64,000 bases of DNA from Candidatus Sumerlaeota bacterium. Lineage in GTDB: Bacteria; Sumerlaeota; Sumerlaeia; Sumerlaeales; Sumerlaeaceae. Made by a program: the position numbers and the translations under genes. Every line of letters begins with the position of its first letter. Within the stretch, counting starts at the first letter, position 1. Below the pieces are notes generated by a model that was given only the letters and a program-made list of their open reading frames with translations, made no database searches and was not told the DNA's origin. This document shows positions 27,336 through 52,610 of this stretch, in pieces. The stretch lies in assembly GCA_017161655.1 (NCBI GenBank), contig JADFCV010000001.1, forward strand, positions 1 to 64,000, read 5' to 3'.

Positions 27336-30053
27336 TTGAAGCCGCTGATTCGAGCAATAATGCTGGGGACCGTTGTTTCACTTGCTTTTATTCTGATGGC
27401 TGCCAAGAGCCCCGACGAAATTCCTGGTGGCGGAGCTGGCGAGGTAAAGGTGCGCGTGGCGTCTAACCTGAAGGAGAAAGATGCAACGCAGCTTCAGCGC
27501 TACCTTCAGGCCGATGGCTATGGCTCAGGAACTTCCATCGAATTAGCAGTCGACGCCCTGGGCAACTACAGCGTGCTTATTGGGCCACTGGAAAGCGAAG
27601 CCCAGGCCAATGCTCTCATAAAAGATCTCCAGGAGTCCGGTTATCAGCCGGAAGGTATTGTTCAGGCTGAAGGTGTTTCCGAAAAAGTCGTGAGTCGTGC
27701 CGAGGCAGGGCGAGTGTTCCGAGTGGCGGTAGGTGAGTTTCCTGATCGCCGCCAAGCCGAAGGACTGCAGCAAACTCTCATGGCAGATGATTATGCCGGT
27801 GTGGACATTATCGAGGAAGGGGGCACGTTCAAAGTCGTCATTGGCGCATTTCCCACAGAGCGTGATGCCGAGAAATTACTGAACCAGCTGCGCAATGATG
27901 GTTACTCGTTTGCGAAGACCATTGAGACCCGCGAGACAGCTCCAGCTCGACGGGCAGCCATAGAGGAACGAGAGGTGGCTTTGCCGGCGGAAGCCCAAAA
28001 GCTCAGTCCCGAGGAACAGGAGAAAGCCAAGGAGCTGATTCGTATGCGTGAGCGGGCCAGCGCTGGGCTTGCTTCAGCTGACGAAATTGTTCAGTTGCGC
28101 GAAGACTTGAAGAGGCTGCGCAGCGAAGTGGCGCAGGTCGTCAAGCTTGTGACAACGAACGAGCAAGCGAATCGTGAGCGTCAGCGCAAAATACGTCCAA
28201 TCCAGGAAAAGTTTAATAACGCATTGCTCGCTAAGAACTTGCAGGCTGCAGAAGCCGCGTTGGAAGAACTCCGTGCTATTGACCCGAACGATCCCTCCTT
28301 GGCATTTTACATTGCCCAATTGAACACCCTCCGAGCTGGACCGTCGGCAGAGGGACAGAAAACCGAAGAACAAAAGCGCATTCAGCAATTGCTCAACGAG
28401 GCCAAAGCTTCTATCGCGGCAAATCGCCTCGAAGATGCGCGAGTTGCACTTATCTCCATTAAGACGATCGATCCTGCCCATCCTGAAGCGCAGAAGCTCT
28501 TACGCGAGGTTAATGAAAAGCTTCAGAAGGCCGCGCCCGTGGCTGCGGGGGGGACTTCAGCGGCGGGAAAACAAATGCTTATCTTTTACGCTGGTGGTGC
28601 CGTACTCCTTGTGCTGGTTGTTGGCTTAGGTGGGTACGTGTTTGTCACGAGTCGCCGCGAAAAAAGAATTTTAGAAGAAGTGCAACATCTTGCTGCCAGC
28701 GGTTCTCGGCCTGAGGCGGAAGTTGCTAAAGCTGACAAAGTGGAAGGGAAAAAGGCACCTGCGGAGAAACCCAAAAGAGGAGCGGAACGGAAAGTCGAGC
28801 CACCTGCTGCTCCAGCACTGGGGAGTGTACCCAGCGCCTTGTCTGGAGCGGGGGCACTTGGAACCTCTATTCTCCAACAGGTGGCAACAGCTCAGCCGGA
28901 ACCAGAAGAAGAGCCTGTCACGACATCTGCACCGGAGATCTTCAAACCAGAGGTCGCAGAAGGTGAAGTTATTCAGGAGGCACGTCCAGCCGGTGAGGCC
29001 GATGTGCTTGTGCTAGGTGATTTAGTGGGAGAAGGGGCGCCTTCCTCAGCCACGGCGGCTGCCTCTGAGGCGCAAGGCGAGCTTAAATTGCCGGACCTCG
29101 ATATTCCTCTCCCGGGCCTCGAAGAGACGCAAACCGCTGTCCCTGCAAGTGAGAGTGAGCCGTCACCGCTCAACCTTGATGCGATATCCAGCGTGAATCT
29201 GGAAGAGCTAATCAGCGGAGCACCGAAAGAGGCAACACCCCCACCCTTGGCCACACCTAGCGTAACCCCGATGATGTCAACGGTCTCCGTGAATGACGAG
29301 ACAACCGTTGGTCCCAGTGAATCAGGAAGCTCATCAGTAACCGAGAAACCAACCGCTGAGGTCTCTGCGGCACCACCGCAGGCTGCAGCGAGCGAGGCTC
29401 TTGCTGGCGCGCCAGGGCTGGAGCCTACAACAAAGCTCCCCGCGGTGGAAGCCTCCGCGTCCCCACGGACAGGTGACGACGGGAAAAAGATCATTTTCGA
29501 ACAAACTTTCGATGACGAGGAGCCTGGCACCCAGCCGCGTGGTTGGCAGGGTGAGTATGACTATGCCACACTTGTTGTGGACAATAGCTCTCCAGCCCCG
29601 GGCTCCAAGGCATGTCTCAAATTTGAGAAGCGAACAGGTTCAGGAAGCGCTCATTACGTCTGTCATTTCCCGAAGGCCACAGGGCTAATTGTGGTGGAGT
29701 TTGATATTCGCTGCGACGAGAAGAACAAGTATCTGCTCGGCTTCTATATCGAAAAGGACGAAGACTTCAAGCAATCAGTCCACACAATCATCCATCGGCT
29801 CGATTCGCGCTCACAACCGACTTTGCGCGTGCAAGGCGAACCGGTGCCTTACGACCTCGGCACGTGGCGCCACGTCAAGTACGAGCTCAATCTCTTGGCC
29901 GGCACCACAACCGCTTACGTTGACGGGCAGGAAGTGATTCGCGACGCAAAGTTGGCTTCCAACTACGGCTATGTCAACACGCTTTCCATCCGTGACAATT
30001 TGGCGACAACTGGTGTGCTTTATCTTGATAACATCAAGATCTACCAGGCCTGA
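27336..30053 (+). CDS. SPOR-repeat/TPR membrane protein with C-terminal jelly-roll (LamG/DUF1080-like) domain
   Basis: N-terminal hydrophobic leader, SPOR-like repeats (YSVLIGPLESEAQANALIKDLQESGY; FRVAVGEFPDRRQAEGLQQTL; FKVVIGAFPTERDAEKLLNQLRNDGY), internal TM MLIFYAGGAVLLVLVVGLGGYVFV, C-terminal IIFEQTFDDEEPG...LDNIKIYQA. Confidence 0.75.
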   Translation: MKPLIRAIMLGTVVSLAFILMAAKSPDEIPGGGAGEVKVRVASNLKEKDATQLQRYLQADGYGSGTSIELAVDALGNYSVLIGPLESEAQANALIKDLQESGYQPEGIVQAEGVSEKVVSRAEAGRVFRVAVGEFPDRRQAEGLQQTLMADDYAGVDIIEEGGTFKVVIGAFPTERDAEKLLNQLRNDGYSFAKTIETRETAPARRAAIEEREVALPAEAQKLSPEEQEKAKELIRMRERASAGLASADEIVQLREDLKRLRSEVAQVVKLVTTNEQANRERQRKIRPIQEKFNNALLAKNLQAAEAALEELRAIDPNDPSLAFYIAQLNTLRAGPSAEGQKTEEQKRIQQLLNEAKASIAANRLEDARVALISIKTIDPAHPEAQKLLREVNEKLQKAAPVAAGGTSAAGKQMLIFYAGGAVLLVLVVGLGGYVFVTSRREKRILEEVQHLAASGSRPEAEVAKADKVEGKKAPAEKPKRGAERKVEPPAAPALGSVPSALSGAGALGTSILQQVATAQPEPEEEPVTTSAPEIFKPEVAEGEVIQEARPAGEADVLVLGDLVGEGAPSSATAAASEAQGELKLPDLDIPLPGLEETQTAVPASESEPSPLNLDAISSVNLEELISGAPKEATPPPLATPSVTPMMSTVSVNDETTVGPSESGSSSVTEKPTAEVSAAPPQAAASEALAGAPGLEPTTKLPAVEASASPRTGDDGKKIIFEQTFDDEEPGTQPRGWQGEYDYATLVVDNSSPAPGSKACLKFEKRTGSGSAHYVCHFPKATGLIVVEFDIRCDEKNKYLLGFYIEKDEDFKQSVHTIIHRLDSRSQPTLRVQGEPVPYDLGTWRHVKYELNLLAGTTTAYVDGQEVIRDAKLASNYGYVNTLSIRDNLATTGVLYLDNIKIYQA

Positions 30054-30138
30054 GAATCATCGGCAGATGAAAAGCGTGAGGACGTGTCCCGCTTTTTCTG
30101 GTGTGAATAGCTATGTTTCTCGATAAAAGAAGGAGCCT

Positions 30139-33100
30139 ATGGACGTTCAAGCAGCGACAGGTCTCATCGAGCAAGTGAATGAACAGATAGACCCGGTCGC
30201 TTTGCTGGAGCGAATAGGATATGCTACCGACAAGATTCAGGCTGTCGGGGCAACAGTGAAAGCGTTTTGTCCTATCCATAAGGACACTCGCTTTCGCTCC
30301 CTTCTCATTGATGCAAAGAAAAAAACGTTCAAGTGCACAACCAAGACGTGTGCGGGCTACAATGGCGGCTCGCTCGTCGAACTCTATGCCCACGTTCGCG
30401 ACATTCCACCACTGGCGGCTGCCACGGAACTTGTTCGGTTGTTCCAACTTGAGATCGATACTTCTCAACTCGATCAGGTGGCTTTGTCTTTTCTCGACGA
30501 GGCCGAACGGGCCTTCGTGGACCACGATCATGAGAGAGCAGAGAAGGCAGCGCGTCAGGCACTTCAGTTCCGCTCCGATCTTATGGAGGCTCGCCTGCTC
30601 CTTGCCAATATTCTTGCAGCAAAGGGCGAGTCGGCTCAGGCGTGCGACGAGTTTATTGCTGTTGCCGAGAACTATCTCAGCCAGGGACAGTACGAGGACG
30701 CGGATCGTGTCCTTGAGCGTGCCTCGATGGATTTTCCAGAAAACGAGGACCTTTTGCTTCTCAAGGTCCACAGTGCGGAACTACAGGGCAATCTCGATCG
30801 TGCAGAGAAGCTCCTACTCGATTTGGCAGCGCGTCGCGAGTCTGCCGGCCGTGCCGCAGAAAACGTCGGCGTTCTCGAAAAACTTGTCGCTCTTTTTCCT
30901 GATAAGTTAGAATATCTCGAAAAGCTTGCTGAAACCCTCTTGGCACGCCGAGAGTTCGACCGGGCGATCACCACACTCAACAATCTCGTCTTCCGTTACT
31001 CAAAGAATGGACAACACGGAGACGTCCTGCGGGTCGTAGAAAAAGCTGCAGAGATTAGGCGCCCCGAAGCTGGTGTGCAGTCCGTCTATGTGGATTCGCT
31101 CGTCGCTCTTGGAGAGTATGAAAAAGCTCGCTCCGCCCTCCATGAGCTTGTCCTCCTTTACATCGAGAACACGATGTTTTTTGAGGCAATGCAGGCAGCG
31201 CGACGTTGGCTGGAGGTTGAACCAGATTCGCCTGAAGTTCACGAATGGTTAGGTCTGATCTGGCAGGAGCAATCCAATGGCCCCGAGGCAGCCCGAGAGT
31301 TCCGGGAAGCTGCTCAGGCAGCTCGCCAACGAGGTGAACTGGAACGAGCCATTGAACTCCTGGGACAAGCCCGCTTCAATGATCCCGAAAACGTCGAGTT
31401 GCGCTGGGACCTCGTTTCGCTCCTTCGTGAACTCGGACAAAGCGATCAGGCTTTTGAAGAACTTTGTAGCCTTGCCGATTTCTTATTTGCACTGGGCGAC
31501 AAGGCCGGCGGCGAGCGCGCCGTCCTTCAAGCGCTGGAAATTCGCCCTCTGACTGCGACACGGTTGGAGTTGGCACCGCTCCTTGCGAAGCATGGTTGTG
31601 CGGATTCTGCGGCTCGGCTTTATCTTGAGGCAGCTCAAGAATGCGAGGACATCGACGATATTCCCGGTGCCGTCGCCTGCTACCAAAGCTATCTCGAACT
31701 TGTCCCGACAGACACCCAGGCAAAACTACGCTATGCTGAGCTTCTTTGGGAGTCGGATTTAATTCGGCTTGCTACCCAGGTGTCGTTAGAGGTGCTAAAC
31801 GAAGCAGAGAACGAGGAGCGCAACAAAATCGCAAAGCGGCTTCTCCCGCGCATCGTCGAGCATCCACCAACGGATCCCCTTGTCCTTCGACGCTTCACCG
31901 AGATCGCTTTGGCGGTGCAAGCCATGGATCTCTTGCCGGGCCTGGCAAAGGTCTTGTCAGGAGTTTGGCCCGAGGATGATCCAGCCTCTCTCGCGGAGTT
32001 TTTCTCTCAGCTTGTCGCTTCTGTGCCAGATGACATCGAACTGATTGAAGAATCAGCGGTATGGCACCAAAAAGCAGGAAATCAGGCAGAGGCCGTGGCA
32101 GCGAATTTGCGTATCGCTGACTTGGCTGAGCAAAAAGGCGATTTACGCAAAGCCCTCACCCATCTGGCCGTTGCGCTCGAGGTCGAACCAGATCGCGAAG
32201 ACCTCGTTAAACGTCGCGCTGATATTCTTGAACGCTTAGACGACCCCGAGCTTGCTCGAGCCGCTCACCGCGATTATTTGGCCCTGCTCGAAAAACGTGG
32301 AAATGCTTCTGAGCTGATCAATGAGTTTCGGCGCTATTTGGACAAATGGCCGGATGATTTGGCAATTCGTCACAAGCTCGCTGATGCGCTCGAACAATCA
32401 GGGAACATTGCCGATGCCGTTTCAGAGCTGAAACAGATCTTACTGGTGAAGCGGCAGCAAGCCGAGTTCGAAGAGCAGCGGTCACTTCTCGAACATTTGT
32501 GCCGGCTGGCACCAGAGCAGTCAGAACTGCGCCTGGAACTAGGAGACGTTCTATCCTTACTCGACGAAAAAGAGCAGGCCCTCCGCGTTTACGAAGAGGT
32601 GGCCGACCATGCTTTGAAGACCAGCGACCTTGATCTGGCGGAACAATCCTTGCGGAAAGCTATGGAGCTCGCTCCGGGCGAAGAACGTCTGCTTCGTTTG
32701 GGTGTGGAGATTGCGCATCGCCGCGGAGATTCCGCTAGGGTGGAGCAGCTTGCAAACCAGCTGGCTGAACTTGGAGCGCCGGACCTCCTCGTGTCCCATT
32801 TCCGGGATCAGGCTAAGGCAGCTTTAGCAGAAAAAGCTTACGAGGTAGCTGGCAAGTATGTCGAGAAGTGGCTCTCCGTGGAGCCTGAGTCTATCGAGGC
32901 ATTGGAGATTGCCGCGGAGATTGCTGAGCAAAAAAAAGATATTTCCTCAGCTGCTCAGCACTTACTGAGATTGTCAGGGCTATTGGCGGCCAAGCACGAC
33001 TTGGATTCCGCCATTGAAAGGTTGCGCCGGGCCGAGCACCTCGTTCCGCAAGACGCGCCGGTGAAGGAAAAACTACTCGATCTTCTCATCACCTCAGGCA

Positions 33101-36100
33101 GAAATGATGAAGCAGCCGAGGTCGCTCGGAGACTCGTTGAGTTGGCGCGCGCCAATGATGACGAAGTTCAAGTAGTTCGCTGGCTTGACCAGCTCACGCA
33201 GTTGCAACCAGAGGATCCGGCCGTCCTCTGGGAAAAGGCCAAGGCACTTTACAAAGCCGAGGGAGCCGAGGCTGCCCTACCCGTCTATCTGCAAGCATTG
33301 GAAAACTTCGAGCGCCGCGGAGATTTCGATGCGTCGGTAAGCCTTCTTAGGGAACTGATTGATTTCTATCCAGCAGAGATCGCTCTGCGAGAGAAGTTCG
33401 CGGACCTCCTTGAAAAAGCTGGGCACCGAGCTGAAGCCAAGCAGGCACTCATAGAGCTAGCGCATAGTTATCGCGATGAGCAGCTTGACCCACTCCGAGC
33501 CATTCTCTTTTTCGGTCGAGCAACAGCACTGATTCCGTCGCCTAACGATGCCCCGGTGTTCGAGGAGTTAGCGGGACTCTACCTCGCAACAAAACAGGAG
33601 GATTTTGCCGCGGGGGCACTGCGTGAGGCCGCTCAGCTTTATGAGGCCGCTGGCGATTTGAATCGTGCCCTAGCAGCTCAGAAGCGACTGTGCGAACTTC
33701 CTGGAGCAGGAGTGCCTGACTGGAAAAAGCTGGCCGAGCTGTACGAGAGCACAAATCAAATTGGGAATGCTCTGGCATCGTACAAGCATGCGTACGAATT
33801 GGCTGAGCACGCATCCGCCATCACGCGTGATGAACGGGTATATCTTTGCGAGCGGATTCTCACACACGACCCACAAAACATCGAGTTCTTGATTGGTTTG
33901 TTAGAACTACTACCGCCTGAAACTGCCGCTAAGCGCTCGCTAGAATGGTTAGCTGTCCACGGCGGATCAGTCGAGTCGGCCACAAGAGTTAAGATACTCG
34001 AGACAACCAAACGGCTTGCCCCAAAGAATCTTGAAGTGCGGTTGGCGCTAGCGGCAGCCTGGCGTGAGCAAGGGGATGATGAAAAGCTTGCGGAGGAGCT
34101 GATAGGGATCTGTGAAACAGCCTCTGGCAAGGAGGCGAGTCGAGTACGCAAGGACGCCCTTGAGGAGCTCAAGAAGCTTCCGCGCACGCCTCAGCTTAGC
34201 CTGAAGCTTGCGTCCCTCATGGCGGACACTGGGGACACTGAGTACGCCGTCGGGTGCTACACGCAAGTGGCTGAAGAGCTCATCGCCGCAGGGGAGTGGA
34301 AAACGGCGCTTCAAGCTCTCGAAAATGCGATGGCACTTGATCCTGCCGCCCTGGCAGCGCCGCTCATCGCGAAGCTCTATCGAGCTTCAGGGGGAGATGC
34401 AACGGTCCGTGCTCTCGCTGATCGCGCGTTCGATGCAGCCCTTCTGGCCCGAAGCCGAACGCGCGCACTCGTCCTCGGCTCGGCTCTTCTCGAGTTTGCC
34501 CCTCTAGAGACTGCTTTTAGCCTGCTTGAACGAGTCAATCAAAAATCGGGGGCAGCTTTTCTCACGGCTTTGTCAGGTTCTTATCTTGATTGGCTTATCG
34601 AGCAGAAACGCCAGCAAGATGCTGAGGCTGTGCTTGAGAAAATTCTCTCACTTGCAGGCAACGCCCCCGACACCTGGTACCTAGCAGCTCAAGTTTATCG
34701 CAAGCTCGGCCAGAGTGAAAAAGCGGCTCAGGCATCCTTGCAAGCCGCTCGCTTATTTGCTCAGGCTGGTGCGGTTACAGAGGAAGAGAATTGCTATCGC
34801 GAGGTTCTCGAGGTAATCCCCGACGACATTCCTACCCTGGAAACGCTGGTCGGATTCTATGAACGCGAACGTCGCAAACCAGATGTCATCGACCTCGTCA
34901 AGCGGCTGGTCGAATTGACACTTGCGAAGAACGATCCTGTAGCAGCCGCAAAATGGATCAAGAAATACCTCGAGTACGATCCAGGAAACATCGAGTTTCG
35001 CGAGAAGCTTCCCGAGCAACTGATTAAAGCCGGCAGGGGAGAAGAGGCGCTCGAAGCGTTCTTTGAGCTGGCTAGAATGCTGGATTCGCTCAGGTTTACA
35101 GACCGAGCCATTGCAGTGTACGAGCGCATTCTTATGCTCGATCCGGAAAACGAGCGAGCTCTGAGTGCGTTGGTTGAGCTCGACGAAAAAACAAACAATC
35201 TGGAACGCGCTCTGAAATATGTCAGGCAGCTAGCCCAGCAAAGAATGCGACAGAATCAGCTCCAGGGTGCTGCTGAGACTCTGAAATCATTTGCCGACCG
35301 CCATCCGGATTTTCTCCCCGCCTATGATGCACTGTTATCATACGCGCAAGAAGCAGGGGATGAGCGTCTGGAGGTGCATGCCCTCCGGACCCTTGGTTAT
35401 CAGGCCGCGAAAAACTCTGATTTTGCGCGTGCAGTGGAAATCTTCGAAAGGCTTGTGACACTACGTCCTGCAGACAAAGAAGCCCTCCAAATGCTTCTCG
35501 ACTGTTGTGCAAGCGCCAAGCTCACCAAGAAGGCTGCGGATGCGGCACAACGCCTGTTTGATCTCGCAGTTGAGGAGGGTAATCCAGCTCGAATTCGCGA
35601 GGCTGCGCTCACGGTTCTCGCTTTCGACGATAAGCGTGCTGCTGTGCGCAAGCGTCTGGCAGCGACGCTGGCGGAATTAGGGCAGGTCGAAGAAGCCACA
35701 CGACAGTGGTGGTTAGCTTCCGATGTCTTTCTGGGAGAAAAGAATTACCCCGAGGCCATCTCGTGTGTCGAGGCCATCACCCAAGTTTCTCCTCAGCATA
35801 CTGAGGCGTGGAAGCGGCTAGCCGAACTCTCGTCCTTAATTGGCGACGAGGATGCGGCACGCGATGCGCTTGTCCATCTCGCCAACGCTCTTATTGATAA
35901 GGGAGAGAGTGAAGAGGCATGCCGTGTTCTTGACAGGATTCTCGAGCACGGCGAACCCGATCCAGTGATCCGCGAGCGCGCTCTTGAGGTTTATCGTCGG
36001 TGCGGCATCCGAGCTGAAATCCTTCCTGAAATTGTCTGGTTAGCTCACTATTACCTCAACCGTCGGAACTTGCCAAAAGCAGAAGAACTTGTTCGGGAGG

Positions 36101-37950
36101 GACTCGAGATCGATCCTGACGATCTCACTCTCCTCGAGTGCCGAGCTGAAATTGCGCGTCGCCTCGGCAAAAGAGAAGAGGTGTTGTTCCGTCTGCGCGA
36201 TCTTGCGGAACGTTATATTCAACTGGGGGACAAGCACAAAGCTACGGCCATGCTCTCTGAGCTCGTTGCCGAAGATCCTACACTTTGGGATGTGCGTGTG
36301 AAGCTGGCCAATCTTTACGAAGAGCTCGACCAACTACCGCGCGCACAAGAAGAATACCTGGAAATTGTTCGCACGAAACTCGAACAGCAGGAGATTGAGG
36401 AAGCGCGTGAAATTGCCGAACAGGCACTTAGTGGACACTGTGCAGGGACAGAGTTTCGAGCTCGACTTGCTGAATTGTTTGCCTCCTACCGAGCATTTGA
36501 AATAGCTAGTCGTTATCTCATCCAATGTGCTAAGGAAGCCGAAGCCCATGAGCATGACGAGCGGGCTATCCACTTCTTGCAGCGGGCCGTAGAAATCCGT
36601 CCAAAGTGGATTGACGCTTATGAAGCTCTTGCAGATGTTTGCACAAGAGCCAACCGTCCTGTCGAGGCTCTGGCTGCGCTCGAGCGACTGTCTGATCTTT
36701 TGTTCGATCAAAAGCGATTGCGCGAGGCTGTGGATGTGCTCAAGCGCAGAATCCAATTGGCTCCCAAAGAGACTGAGCCGCGACGCCAATTGATCGACCT
36801 TCTCGAAGTTCTGGGTGAACGAGAGGCTCGAATCCAGCAGCTCCAGGAGTTCGCGGATCTGCTCATTACCCGCGGAGAAATCGAAGAAGCTGTCGAGGTT
36901 TATAAACAACTCACTCTTCTTGAACCAGATGAGCCCGTACTTTTGAACCGTTATCTCGAGCTTTTTGCCCAAATAGGGAACGAACTCGAAGTGCTGCCAG
37001 ACTACCAACGTTTGGCGGATCTTTATATTAAGAAAGGGCTCTTCCAGGAAGCCACGCGCACTTTCGAACGGATCCTCTCCATTGACCGCCGACAACGAGA
37101 TGTCCGCGAAAAGTTTATCCAGTTTCTTCAGAGTGCAGGACAGCGCAGTCGTGCCATCGCAGAAATGGTCAAGCTGGCCGATTTGTGCATGAGCACCGGA
37201 CATTATACCGATGCCGTACGCTGGCTGGCGAATGCTAATGCTCTCAATCCGTCAGATTTGAACGTCCTCGAATCACTCGCAGAAGCGTATGCTCGCGCCG
37301 GCAACGCCAATGCGGCCGCAGAACACTTTTATAAGTTGGCCCGAGCTTGCCGTGAGACAGATCCATGGCGTGCTGTGGCTGCCTGTCGCCGAACAGTTGA
37401 GTTGGTCCCAGATCATCGTCCAACGCGCGAAATCTATAGCGAACTTTTGATGAAGGTAGGGGAGCGAGCTGAAGCCGCAGCCAACGCTCTTGCACTGGCC
37501 GATCTCTATCGTAGCGCCGGGGAAATAGAGCTGGCTAATGAGCAGGAGAGGCTAGCCAAGCAATACGAGCCAGAGACAATCGAGTCCCTTACGAAAAAGG
37601 TTGAGCAGGAAAACCTCGAGCCGGCACAGCGCTACGAGTATGTGGTCAGGCTTGGCGATTTACTGTATCAGGCTGGTGATGTTGATCGGGCTATCGACTG
37701 TTATCGCAAGGCGCGAGAAATTGACAATTCTAACCCAGAGCTTATTCGCAAGTACGTTAACGCACTGCTTCAGATCGCACCCGAACACGAGGCCATCGCT
37801 GACCTCATCGAGTTGGCTCGTTCTTACGAAGGCCGCGGTGCTGCGCTCCGCGCCCTCGAAACGTATGAGATGATTCTGAAGATAGATGCTAAAAATCCCG
37901 TCGCCAAAGCGGGGCGGACTCGGATGCGGAAAATAACAAACACGGAGTGA
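30139..37950 (+). CDS. giant TPR-repeat protein (2603 aa) with N-terminal CHC2/primase-like zinc finger
   Basis: IDPVALLERIGY...VKAFCPIHKDTRFRSLLIDAKKKTFKCTTKTCAGYNGGSLVELYAHV resembles a DnaG CHC2 finger; the remainder is near-continuous ~34-residue helical repeats (e.g. ALEIAAEIAEQKKDISSAAQHLLRLSGLLAA). Confidence 0.8.
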   Translation: MDVQAATGLIEQVNEQIDPVALLERIGYATDKIQAVGATVKAFCPIHKDTRFRSLLIDAKKKTFKCTTKTCAGYNGGSLVELYAHVRDIPPLAAATELVRLFQLEIDTSQLDQVALSFLDEAERAFVDHDHERAEKAARQALQFRSDLMEARLLLANILAAKGESAQACDEFIAVAENYLSQGQYEDADRVLERASMDFPENEDLLLLKVHSAELQGNLDRAEKLLLDLAARRESAGRAAENVGVLEKLVALFPDKLEYLEKLAETLLARREFDRAITTLNNLVFRYSKNGQHGDVLRVVEKAAEIRRPEAGVQSVYVDSLVALGEYEKARSALHELVLLYIENTMFFEAMQAARRWLEVEPDSPEVHEWLGLIWQEQSNGPEAAREFREAAQAARQRGELERAIELLGQARFNDPENVELRWDLVSLLRELGQSDQAFEELCSLADFLFALGDKAGGERAVLQALEIRPLTATRLELAPLLAKHGCADSAARLYLEAAQECEDIDDIPGAVACYQSYLELVPTDTQAKLRYAELLWESDLIRLATQVSLEVLNEAENEERNKIAKRLLPRIVEHPPTDPLVLRRFTEIALAVQAMDLLPGLAKVLSGVWPEDDPASLAEFFSQLVASVPDDIELIEESAVWHQKAGNQAEAVAANLRIADLAEQKGDLRKALTHLAVALEVEPDREDLVKRRADILERLDDPELARAAHRDYLALLEKRGNASELINEFRRYLDKWPDDLAIRHKLADALEQSGNIADAVSELKQILLVKRQQAEFEEQRSLLEHLCRLAPEQSELRLELGDVLSLLDEKEQALRVYEEVADHALKTSDLDLAEQSLRKAMELAPGEERLLRLGVEIAHRRGDSARVEQLANQLAELGAPDLLVSHFRDQAKAALAEKAYEVAGKYVEKWLSVEPESIEALEIAAEIAEQKKDISSAAQHLLRLSGLLAAKHDLDSAIERLRRAEHLVPQDAPVKEKLLDLLITSGRNDEAAEVARRLVELARANDDEVQVVRWLDQLTQLQPEDPAVLWEKAKALYKAEGAEAALPVYLQALENFERRGDFDASVSLLRELIDFYPAEIALREKFADLLEKAGHRAEAKQALIELAHSYRDEQLDPLRAILFFGRATALIPSPNDAPVFEELAGLYLATKQEDFAAGALREAAQLYEAAGDLNRALAAQKRLCELPGAGVPDWKKLAELYESTNQIGNALASYKHAYELAEHASAITRDERVYLCERILTHDPQNIEFLIGLLELLPPETAAKRSLEWLAVHGGSVESATRVKILETTKRLAPKNLEVRLALAAAWREQGDDEKLAEELIGICETASGKEASRVRKDALEELKKLPRTPQLSLKLASLMADTGDTEYAVGCYTQVAEELIAAGEWKTALQALENAMALDPAALAAPLIAKLYRASGGDATVRALADRAFDAALLARSRTRALVLGSALLEFAPLETAFSLLERVNQKSGAAFLTALSGSYLDWLIEQKRQQDAEAVLEKILSLAGNAPDTWYLAAQVYRKLGQSEKAAQASLQAARLFAQAGAVTEEENCYREVLEVIPDDIPTLETLVGFYERERRKPDVIDLVKRLVELTLAKNDPVAAAKWIKKYLEYDPGNIEFREKLPEQLIKAGRGEEALEAFFELARMLDSLRFTDRAIAVYERILMLDPENERALSALVELDEKTNNLERALKYVRQLAQQRMRQNQLQGAAETLKSFADRHPDFLPAYDALLSYAQEAGDERLEVHALRTLGYQAAKNSDFARAVEIFERLVTLRPADKEALQMLLDCCASAKLTKKAADAAQRLFDLAVEEGNPARIREAALTVLAFDDKRAAVRKRLAATLAELGQVEEATRQWWLASDVFLGEKNYPEAISCVEAITQVSPQHTEAWKRLAELSSLIGDEDAARDALVHLANALIDKGESEEACRVLDRILEHGEPDPVIRERALEVYRRCGIRAEILPEIVWLAHYYLNRRNLPKAEELVREGLEIDPDDLTLLECRAEIARRLGKREEVLFRLRDLAERYIQLGDKHKATAMLSELVAEDPTLWDVRVKLANLYEELDQLPRAQEEYLEIVRTKLEQQEIEEAREIAEQALSGHCAGTEFRARLAELFASYRAFEIASRYLIQCAKEAEAHEHDERAIHFLQRAVEIRPKWIDAYEALADVCTRANRPVEALAALERLSDLLFDQKRLREAVDVLKRRIQLAPKETEPRRQLIDLLEVLGEREARIQQLQEFADLLITRGEIEEAVEVYKQLTLLEPDEPVLLNRYLELFAQIGNELEVLPDYQRLADLYIKKGLFQEATRTFERILSIDRRQRDVREKFIQFLQSAGQRSRAIAEMVKLADLCMSTGHYTDAVRWLANANALNPSDLNVLESLAEAYARAGNANAAAEHFYKLARACRETDPWRAVAACRRTVELVPDHRPTREIYSELLMKVGERAEAAANALALADLYRSAGEIELANEQERLAKQYEPETIESLTKKVEQENLEPAQRYEYVVRLGDLLYQAGDVDRAIDCYRKAREIDNSNPELIRKYVNALLQIAPEHEAIADLIELARSYEGRGAALRALETYEMILKIDAKNPVAKAGRTRMRKITNTE

Positions 37951-37973
37951 GCGTTTTTCGGCTCACTCCGTGT
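37940..37973 (-). terminator. terminator of the alpha operon, overlapping the 3' end of the giant TPR gene
   Basis: perfect 13-bp inverted repeat ACACGGAGTGAGC-gtttttcg-GCTCACTCCGTGT; minus-strand continuation TTTGTTATTTT is T-rich. Confidence 0.7.
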
Positions 37974-51914: not shown

Positions 51915-52610
51915 TTACCTGAGGTTTCGCAGCCGGTAATCGCCTGGAGGAAAGTCGATACGGAGGCACATCTCCGAAATGCGCGACACGATACGTGGCC
52001 CGATTTGCGCGCGTAGTTCTTCAAGGGAGCGATTTGTGGTGATAATCGTAGGAAGATCATTCTCATAACGCCCGTTAATGAGGACGTACAGCCGGTCCAT
52101 CACGTACTCGCTGACTTTTTCCGCGCCTAGATCGTCGAGCACAAGCAGATCTGTTTCCACGGCCTCGTCAATGATAGCAGCCTCGTCCACATCTGTAGGT
52201 GCGTTCATTGTGCGCCGCAGCTCCAAAAATAGCTCGGGAACGTTCCAATACAGGCCGCGATGGCCTTTGGCGATAATGTCCTTCAAAATCGCCACCGCAA
52301 TGTGCGTTTTCCCCGTGCCCTCCTTTCCATAAAGCAAAAGGCCTTTCGTAGGCTGATTGGGGGCTTTGACTCGAAAAGTTCGCACAAAGTTCTTCGCAAA
52401 CTCGACGATTTCCTTGTGGCGCGGATCAATGGCGCGAAATTCATCGAGGGTCTTCGTGAAAAAGCGATGAGGAATTTGCGCTGCGCGGTACGCTTCTTCA
52501 AGACGAGCCTGGGCCTGGCACTCGCACGCTATGGCGCCTTTGTCCGTGAGAATGTAACCCCATCCCTCACACTTCGGGCAAACAGTCTGTTTCTTCTCCC
52601 TTTTTTTCAT
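51915..52610 (-). CDS. DnaC/IstB-like AAA+ ATPase (putative helicase loader)
   Basis: zinc-binding-like N-terminus CPKCEGWGYILTDKGAIACECQAQ; GLLLYGKEGTGKTHIAVAILKDIIAKGHRGLY; LLVLDDLGAEKVSEYVMDRLYVLINGRYENDLPTIITTN. Confidence 0.88.
   Translation of the reverse strand: MKKREKKQTVCPKCEGWGYILTDKGAIACECQAQARLEEAYRAAQIPHRFFTKTLDEFRAIDPRHKEIVEFAKNFVRTFRVKAPNQPTKGLLLYGKEGTGKTHIAVAILKDIIAKGHRGLYWNVPELFLELRRTMNAPTDVDEAAIIDEAVETDLLVLDDLGAEKVSEYVMDRLYVLINGRYENDLPTIITTNRSLEELRAQIGPRIVSRISEMCLRIDFPPGDYRLRNLR

Follow-up and report, generated by a model that had tools for sequence, protein, structure and literature searches.

Bacterial primase (DnaG) begins with a CHC2-type zinc domain (PF01807; structures 2au3 and 1d0q), in which a Cys-x2-His pair is followed by a CX2C pair, and which is accompanied by RNA-polymerase/TOPRIM and helicase-binding domains. 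The zinc domain of B. subtilis DnaG by itself does not bind ssDNA (PMC5429622). In the initiator DnaA (E. coli numbering), D269 is sensor 1, R281 belongs to box VII, R285 is the arginine finger and R334 is sensor 2 (PMC5742627). Canonical TPR solenoids, such as those of OGT, CTR9 and SKI3 or the CTPR designs, are made of two-helix repeats of 34 aa, and SgmX is a large cytoplasmic TPR hub of the Myxococcus type IV pilus (PMC7519303). Type IV pilus genes have been reported for all Sumerlaeota MAGs studied (PMC8092238). The landmark protein FimV/HubP, in an excerpt of its description (PMC12918733), combines a periplasmic peptidoglycan-binding LysM domain with a transmembrane (TM) segment and a long acidic cytoplasmic stretch. 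SPOR domains, according to an excerpt of another source (PMC6895207), bind peptidoglycan stripped of peptides, which is enriched at the septum.

The window analysed here is a 64,000-nt stretch (bases 1–64000 of contig C9) of a Sumerlaeota genome (G000; 3.1 Mb, 17 contigs, 93.5% complete). It holds an intact open reading frame, translated without a stop, for a 2,603-aa protein in which a primase-type zinc ribbon is joined to a giant solenoid; we refer to this protein and its counterparts as class A (Table 1). A preliminary description had called the architecture unusual and had suggested a scaffold, for the nucleoid or for replication, or else a hub for protein assembly. Unusual it is, and we found no paper on a primase-type ribbon on a giant solenoid together with a DnaA paralogue (open-access literature; weak evidence). 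Each piece was already known; the combination that none of the papers searched describes is the primase-type ribbon on a giant three-helix scaffold, accompanied by a phylum-wide DnaA-ATPase paralogue.

Table 1. Coordinates of the class A gene, its upstream neighbour F1 and two class B genes. Positions are those of the window unless a genome and contig are given.
Feature	Position	Strand	Evidence
F1, 905 aa, directly upstream of class A	27336..30053	+	Pfam SPOR, TM scan, conserved order
Best SPOR match of F1, residues 126-190	27711..27905	+	Pfam SPOR, E 2.9e-19
Second hydrophobic segment of F1, residues 414-432, then basic stretch	28575..28631	+	
F1 C-terminal domain, phylum-conserved part	29484..30050	+	LamG-like by very weak Pfam match
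AAGGAG, ribosome-binding-site-like, precedes ATG 30139	30130..30135	+	
Class A gene, DnaG-type zinc ribbon and 54-aa-repeat alpha-solenoid, 2,603 aa	30139..37950	+	
Zinc-ribbon domain, residues 1-108	30139..30462	+	PF01807, PDB profile, AF2, Foldseek
First ligand pair, C44-x2-H47 (CPIH)	30268..30279	+	Invariance in class A
Second ligand pair, C66-x4-C71 (CTTKTC)	30334..30351	+	Ligand conservation
Solenoid, residues 149-2603, ~45 periods of 54 aa	30583..37947	+	Autocorrelation, AF2, PSSM
Likely terminator, 13-bp inverted repeat with T-rich tail on - strand	37940..37973	-	Class A / convergent gene boundary
Class B gene (L083)	G000:C14:97071-103700		
Class B gene (L047)	G035:C1:2399960-2406355		

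The N-terminal zinc ribbon

Searched as a single sequence, the class A protein matched PF01807 at residues 9–109 (E 1.2e-4, 22.3 bits), under the curated cut-off of 24.9 bits, so a profile test was needed. Some relatives score above this cut-off; PF01807 was the sole family matched among 60 relatives and was matched by 43 of them (best E 3.2e-7). In the PDB, a profile of the 60 relatives matched nothing but DnaG chains (2au3, E 1.2e-4; 1d0q, E 0.004). The genome has a separate DnaG at G000:C13 (recognised at E 6.3e-37), and hhalign with it gave a probability of 96.3%. The AlphaFold model of the finger (pLDDT 94.9) has the predicted order helix, helix, four strands, two helices, and Foldseek matched it to 2au3 and 1d0q, both DnaG, at a probability of 1.00, with no other good match. 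Judged by profile and predicted fold, residues 1–108 are a true homologue of the DnaG (CHC2) zinc ribbon, as the preliminary description had proposed for the N-terminus. A chance match on an ordinary TPR giant is extremely improbable, as the profile, the structure prediction, the fold search and the ligands all argue against it, and its sole point is the single-sequence Pfam score.

Likeness to DnaG extends over the fold, the order of Cys-x2-His and then Cys...Cys, a GG-x-L/I motif past the last ligand and the N-terminal position. The class A finger differs in having CX4C for CX2C in the second ligand pair, and in being fused to a solenoid in place of RNA-polymerase/TOPRIM or helicase-binding domains; no TOPRIM or polymerase domain was among the best Pfam matches of the class A protein, as had been noticed at the outset.

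C44, H47, C66 and C71 are invariant in 16/16 aligned class A proteins. The CHCC pattern (C-x2-H-x18-C-x4-C) occurs in 83 of 91 distinct family members (94 distinct rows scored minus three DnaG rows identified by tree; fetched sequences only, a subset of all matches), and CX4C, first remarked on in the single protein, is therefore the family rule. This is the unbiased count, since alignment A1 has 60 rows of which 57 had been preselected by the C-x4-C pattern. Neither of the outcomes that the preliminary description had named as contrary, the lack of a profile match to CHC2 and cysteines that are not conserved, was what we found. The finger probably binds zinc.

The members without CHCC are one from G002 (CCCC) and seven others, all of them class B proteins of family f13 (L069, L134, L136, L138, L139, L140, L142). 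In these, C66 is replaced by S, C71 by G or M and H47 by C or S (patterns C-C-S-G, C-C-S-M and C-S-S-M), and the second cysteine pair is thus lost; the domain is still recognisable.

By sequence identity, the finger is the slower-evolving part of class A: it is 80% identical to its counterpart in a genome of the same genus, vs 67% for the solenoid, and 68% vs 48% in the comparison with G035. Identities alone were used, as synonymous sites were saturated and dN/dS was discarded.

A solenoid with a 54-residue repeat

Autocorrelation gave peaks at 54, 108, 162 and 216 residues for both class A and class B; class C peaked at 54 and 108. In the AlphaFold model of residues 1–600 (16 sequences, pLDDT 91.2), predicted helices of ~13, 17 and 14 residues follow one another in this fixed order from residue 149 onward, and a 54-aa PSSM found 36 full-length repeats in the class A protein, vs 0–1 in shuffles. 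Between residue 149 and the end of the protein there is room for ~45 periods, with irregular stretches at about 1190–1350 and 1405–1510. The matrix trained on class A also found 30 and 18 repeats in two class B proteins and four each in two class C proteins, again with 54 spacing. As a control, 14 further TPR proteins encoded by this genome were compared, of which none peaks at 54 and nine peak at 34, 35 or 68. Because classes A, B and C have the finger and the 54-aa repeat in common, and those 14 proteins do not have this repeat, we consider them one inherited architecture.

TPR-like helical hairpins are present (TPR_19 matches the solenoid at E 2.6e-80, and many TPR Pfam models match), and the Foldseek matches of the solenoid are adaptor TPRs (OGT, SKI3, CTR9, APC/C). 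The difference from canonical TPR lies in the three-helix 54-aa period throughout, rather than a two-helix 34-aa one. The simple 34-aa TPR model was rejected: a designed-consensus hidden Markov model found one unit in the solenoid, and a 34-aa matrix gave 41 units with spacings of 54, 34 and 74, which exposed the 54-aa period. The preliminary estimate of ~70 TPR-sized units is right as to a helical giant, whose ~136 helices fit ~70 hairpins, but the repeat itself is a three-helix unit of 54 aa in ~45 periods.

F1 and the gene neighbourhood

The class A protein has no hydrophobic segment and is therefore probably cytoplasmic. The gene directly upstream, F1, is separated from it by 85 nt, and no terminator-like site was found in this gap. 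The F1 layout runs from an N-terminal signal/TM segment through SPOR domains, a second TM segment, a basic stretch and an acidic linker (present in most F1 members) to a C-terminal domain. As SPOR domains bind denuded glycans, F1 probably marks the septum or the young pole. A periplasmic peptidoglycan-binding domain, a TM segment and a long acidic cytoplasmic stretch are also what the excerpt on FimV/HubP describes; F1 differs in having SPOR for LysM and a LamG-like C-terminus for the FimV TPR domain. Neither LysM nor the C-terminal FimV TPR domain was found in F1, where SPOR and LamG-like matches were the only ones. The LamG-like match itself is at E 0.095, and the TM layout places this domain in the cytoplasm, which is odd for such a fold.

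Identified by its C-terminal domain, F1 occurs exactly once in 38 of the 40 genomes. In 22 genomes from nine families it lies next to class A and in the same orientation; nine genomes have both genes in non-adjacent places (five in f12, two in f8, one in f7, one in f13). F1 is also kept where class A was not found. The linkage is therefore not obligate. One such case is G034 (same family, 92% complete), which has F1 (L174) without class A; no finger-solenoid paralogue was found there, and the finger profile was answered by its DnaG only.

The genes downstream of class A we take, by eye, to be L17, RpoA and S4; Memo and NuoH lie upstream. The conservation of these genes is limited to the family, and we read them as housekeeping genes; besides F1, the neighbourhood consists of such genes alone, without a functional pattern.

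The paralogue family

Searching 40 Sumerlaeota genomes for the finger gave matches in 37, and a profile to which DnaG responds as well gave 38, MAG completeness bearing on any absence in these counts. The preliminary description had suggested looking for the architecture in sister genomes; nearly the whole phylum keeps class A or one of its sister proteins. A tree of the finger (103 columns only; moderate support) separates four classes. Class A is the giant, finger and solenoid. Class B has the finger, a 54-aa-repeat solenoid and a C-terminal DnaA domain III without domain IV, class C the finger and a short solenoid (about 440–580 aa), and class D the finger alone (136–183 aa). Beyond these genomes, a plasmid search for relatives gave no match, a phage search gave weak primase-like matches only, and a search of genome contigs gave one locus, itself Sumerlaeota. 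Over the range that these searches covered (40 Sumerlaeota genomes, and other phyla barely), class A is specific to Sumerlaeota.

The class B protein of G035 matches DnaA at its C-terminus with E 4.4e-66, and others with 1.7e-64 and 7.3e-61. A canonical DnaA and a class B protein, one of each, are present in most genomes. Equivalents of K178, T179, D235, D236, D269, R281, R285 and R334 (E. coli numbering) are kept in 24/24 class B domains, which share 42% identity with domain III of E. coli DnaA. Walker A mostly departs from the canonical motif at its first two residues, with SD in place of GG. Compared with DnaA domain III or Hda, the ATPase, sensor, box VII and arginine-finger residues are complete, and class B differs in that domain IV is missing and a primase-type finger and solenoid come first. 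No domain IV DNA-binding helix-turn-helix was found in class B, which ends about 20–40 aa past the lid, and Bac_DnaA_C was not among the class B matches listed. Two class B genes, those of G000 and G039 (outlying family f15), are broken off by a contig end or a run of N; in G000 it is the latter that interrupts the gene.

The DnaA-bearing paralogue and the SPOR/TM partner are new evidence which, at the level of sequence, bears on both the scaffold and the assembly-hub suggestions. A nearly phylum-wide finger-solenoid family with a DnaA-ATPase sister makes an uncharacterised family, partly built from replication domains, testable, and with it an example of how modules of DnaG and DnaA can be put to use away from the enzymes they come from. 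It may offer a concrete handle on how replication, division or polarity is organised in an uncultured phylum.

Possible roles

The observations that any account has to accommodate are the domains present, the conserved ligands and motifs, the order of the genes and their retention across the phylum. We tentatively favour, as a possible reading, that class A is a cytoplasmic hub at a FimV/HubP-like F1, with the finger as a docking cap and possible coupling to replication through the family. The DnaG-type ribbon, a conserved element, would cap one end of the very long alpha-solenoid and would act as a specific dock rather than a stand-alone DNA binder, and the solenoid grooves would collect several partners or clients. 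Class A would be made together with F1 and probably held at the envelope by it: the SPOR domains, outside the inner membrane, would bind stripped septal or polar peptidoglycan, and the cytoplasmic tail and C-terminal domain of F1, by analogy with FimV/HubP, would reach the class A solenoid. Since class B keeps the DnaA ATPase and inter-subunit residues and is without the DNA-binding domain, the family may couple the replication machinery (DnaA, or the partner of a primase-type finger) to the pole or division site. Against the hub stand the nine genomes with F1 and class A apart, the instances of F1 without class A, the lack of a DnaA domain in class A itself, the neighbourhood without a pattern and the cysteine loss in f13.

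A replication scaffold would have the finger contact template or primer DNA or the replisome, class A organise an initiation or primase complex, and class B act in an Hda-like manner on DnaA oligomers. The DnaG-type finger, the retained Walker, sensor, box VII and arginine-finger residues of class B, and the single copy of it that most genomes have in addition to a canonical DnaA are consistent with this. We nevertheless consider it unlikely, as the isolated zinc domain of DnaG fails to bind ssDNA, the fingers have no net positive charge (mean of −0.8 over 60 fingers), the neighbourhood of class A is non-replicative, the DnaA domain sits in class B and is absent from the class A protein itself, and class B of f13 is without the second ligand pair. 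The preliminary description's "nucleic-acid-type" finger stands as a primase-type ribbon, and the binding of nucleic acid that the term implies is put in doubt by the ssDNA result, the charge and the f13 loss. Replicative clients of the hub are a related matter: the kinship of the finger with DnaG and the DnaA domain of class B point that way, against the same ssDNA result, the same charge and the same lack of a DnaA domain in class A.

We also doubt that class A serves type IV pili or motility as a polar hub, akin to SgmX and the FimV landmark. SgmX and PilW, both of the type IV pilus, are among its best NCBIfam matches, the F1 layout is FimV-like, and pilus genes have been reported for every Sumerlaeota MAG studied, as noted above. 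The NCBIfam matches are all below cut-off, however, and TPR models cross-match widely; the match to the SgmX model NF052243, though colinear and to another large cytoplasmic TPR hub, reaches 95.4 bits, far under the cut-off of 1800. No pilus gene was recognised beside class A, the excerpt on SgmX mentions no zinc finger, and this reading accounts neither for the finger of class A nor for the paralogue with DnaA.

If class A were a generic TPR-like chaperone or adaptor, serving large complexes of translation, secretion or the envelope, and its finger no more than a structural cap, this would fit the adaptor TPRs matched by the solenoid fold and the dispensability of the zinc ligands in one class B lineage. 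The invariance of the ligands in the 16 aligned class A proteins, where the finger is the best-conserved part, exceeds what a passive cap needs, and we rate this reading as rather improbable.

The most ambitious extension of the favoured hub would be a dedicated Sumerlaeota system, in which primase-type fingers and a DnaA ATPase on 54-aa scaffolds link replication initiation, or else the replisome, to a polar or septal landmark of the envelope; we regard this as quite improbable.

Additional observations

Class D loci occur in families f12 and f13 (L052, L061, L077-L081). G016 encodes a 798-aa finger and TPR protein (L135:1244-3637, minus strand) with a long, beta-rich-looking C-terminal region, which by eye we take to be PilZ-like and for which there was no Pfam match. 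Finally, a 245-aa frame at 51975-52367 (minus strand) of the window has a weak Bac_DnaA match (33.2 bits) and is possibly an Hda-like or DnaC/IstB-like ATPase; similar frames of ~240 aa occur in many relatives.
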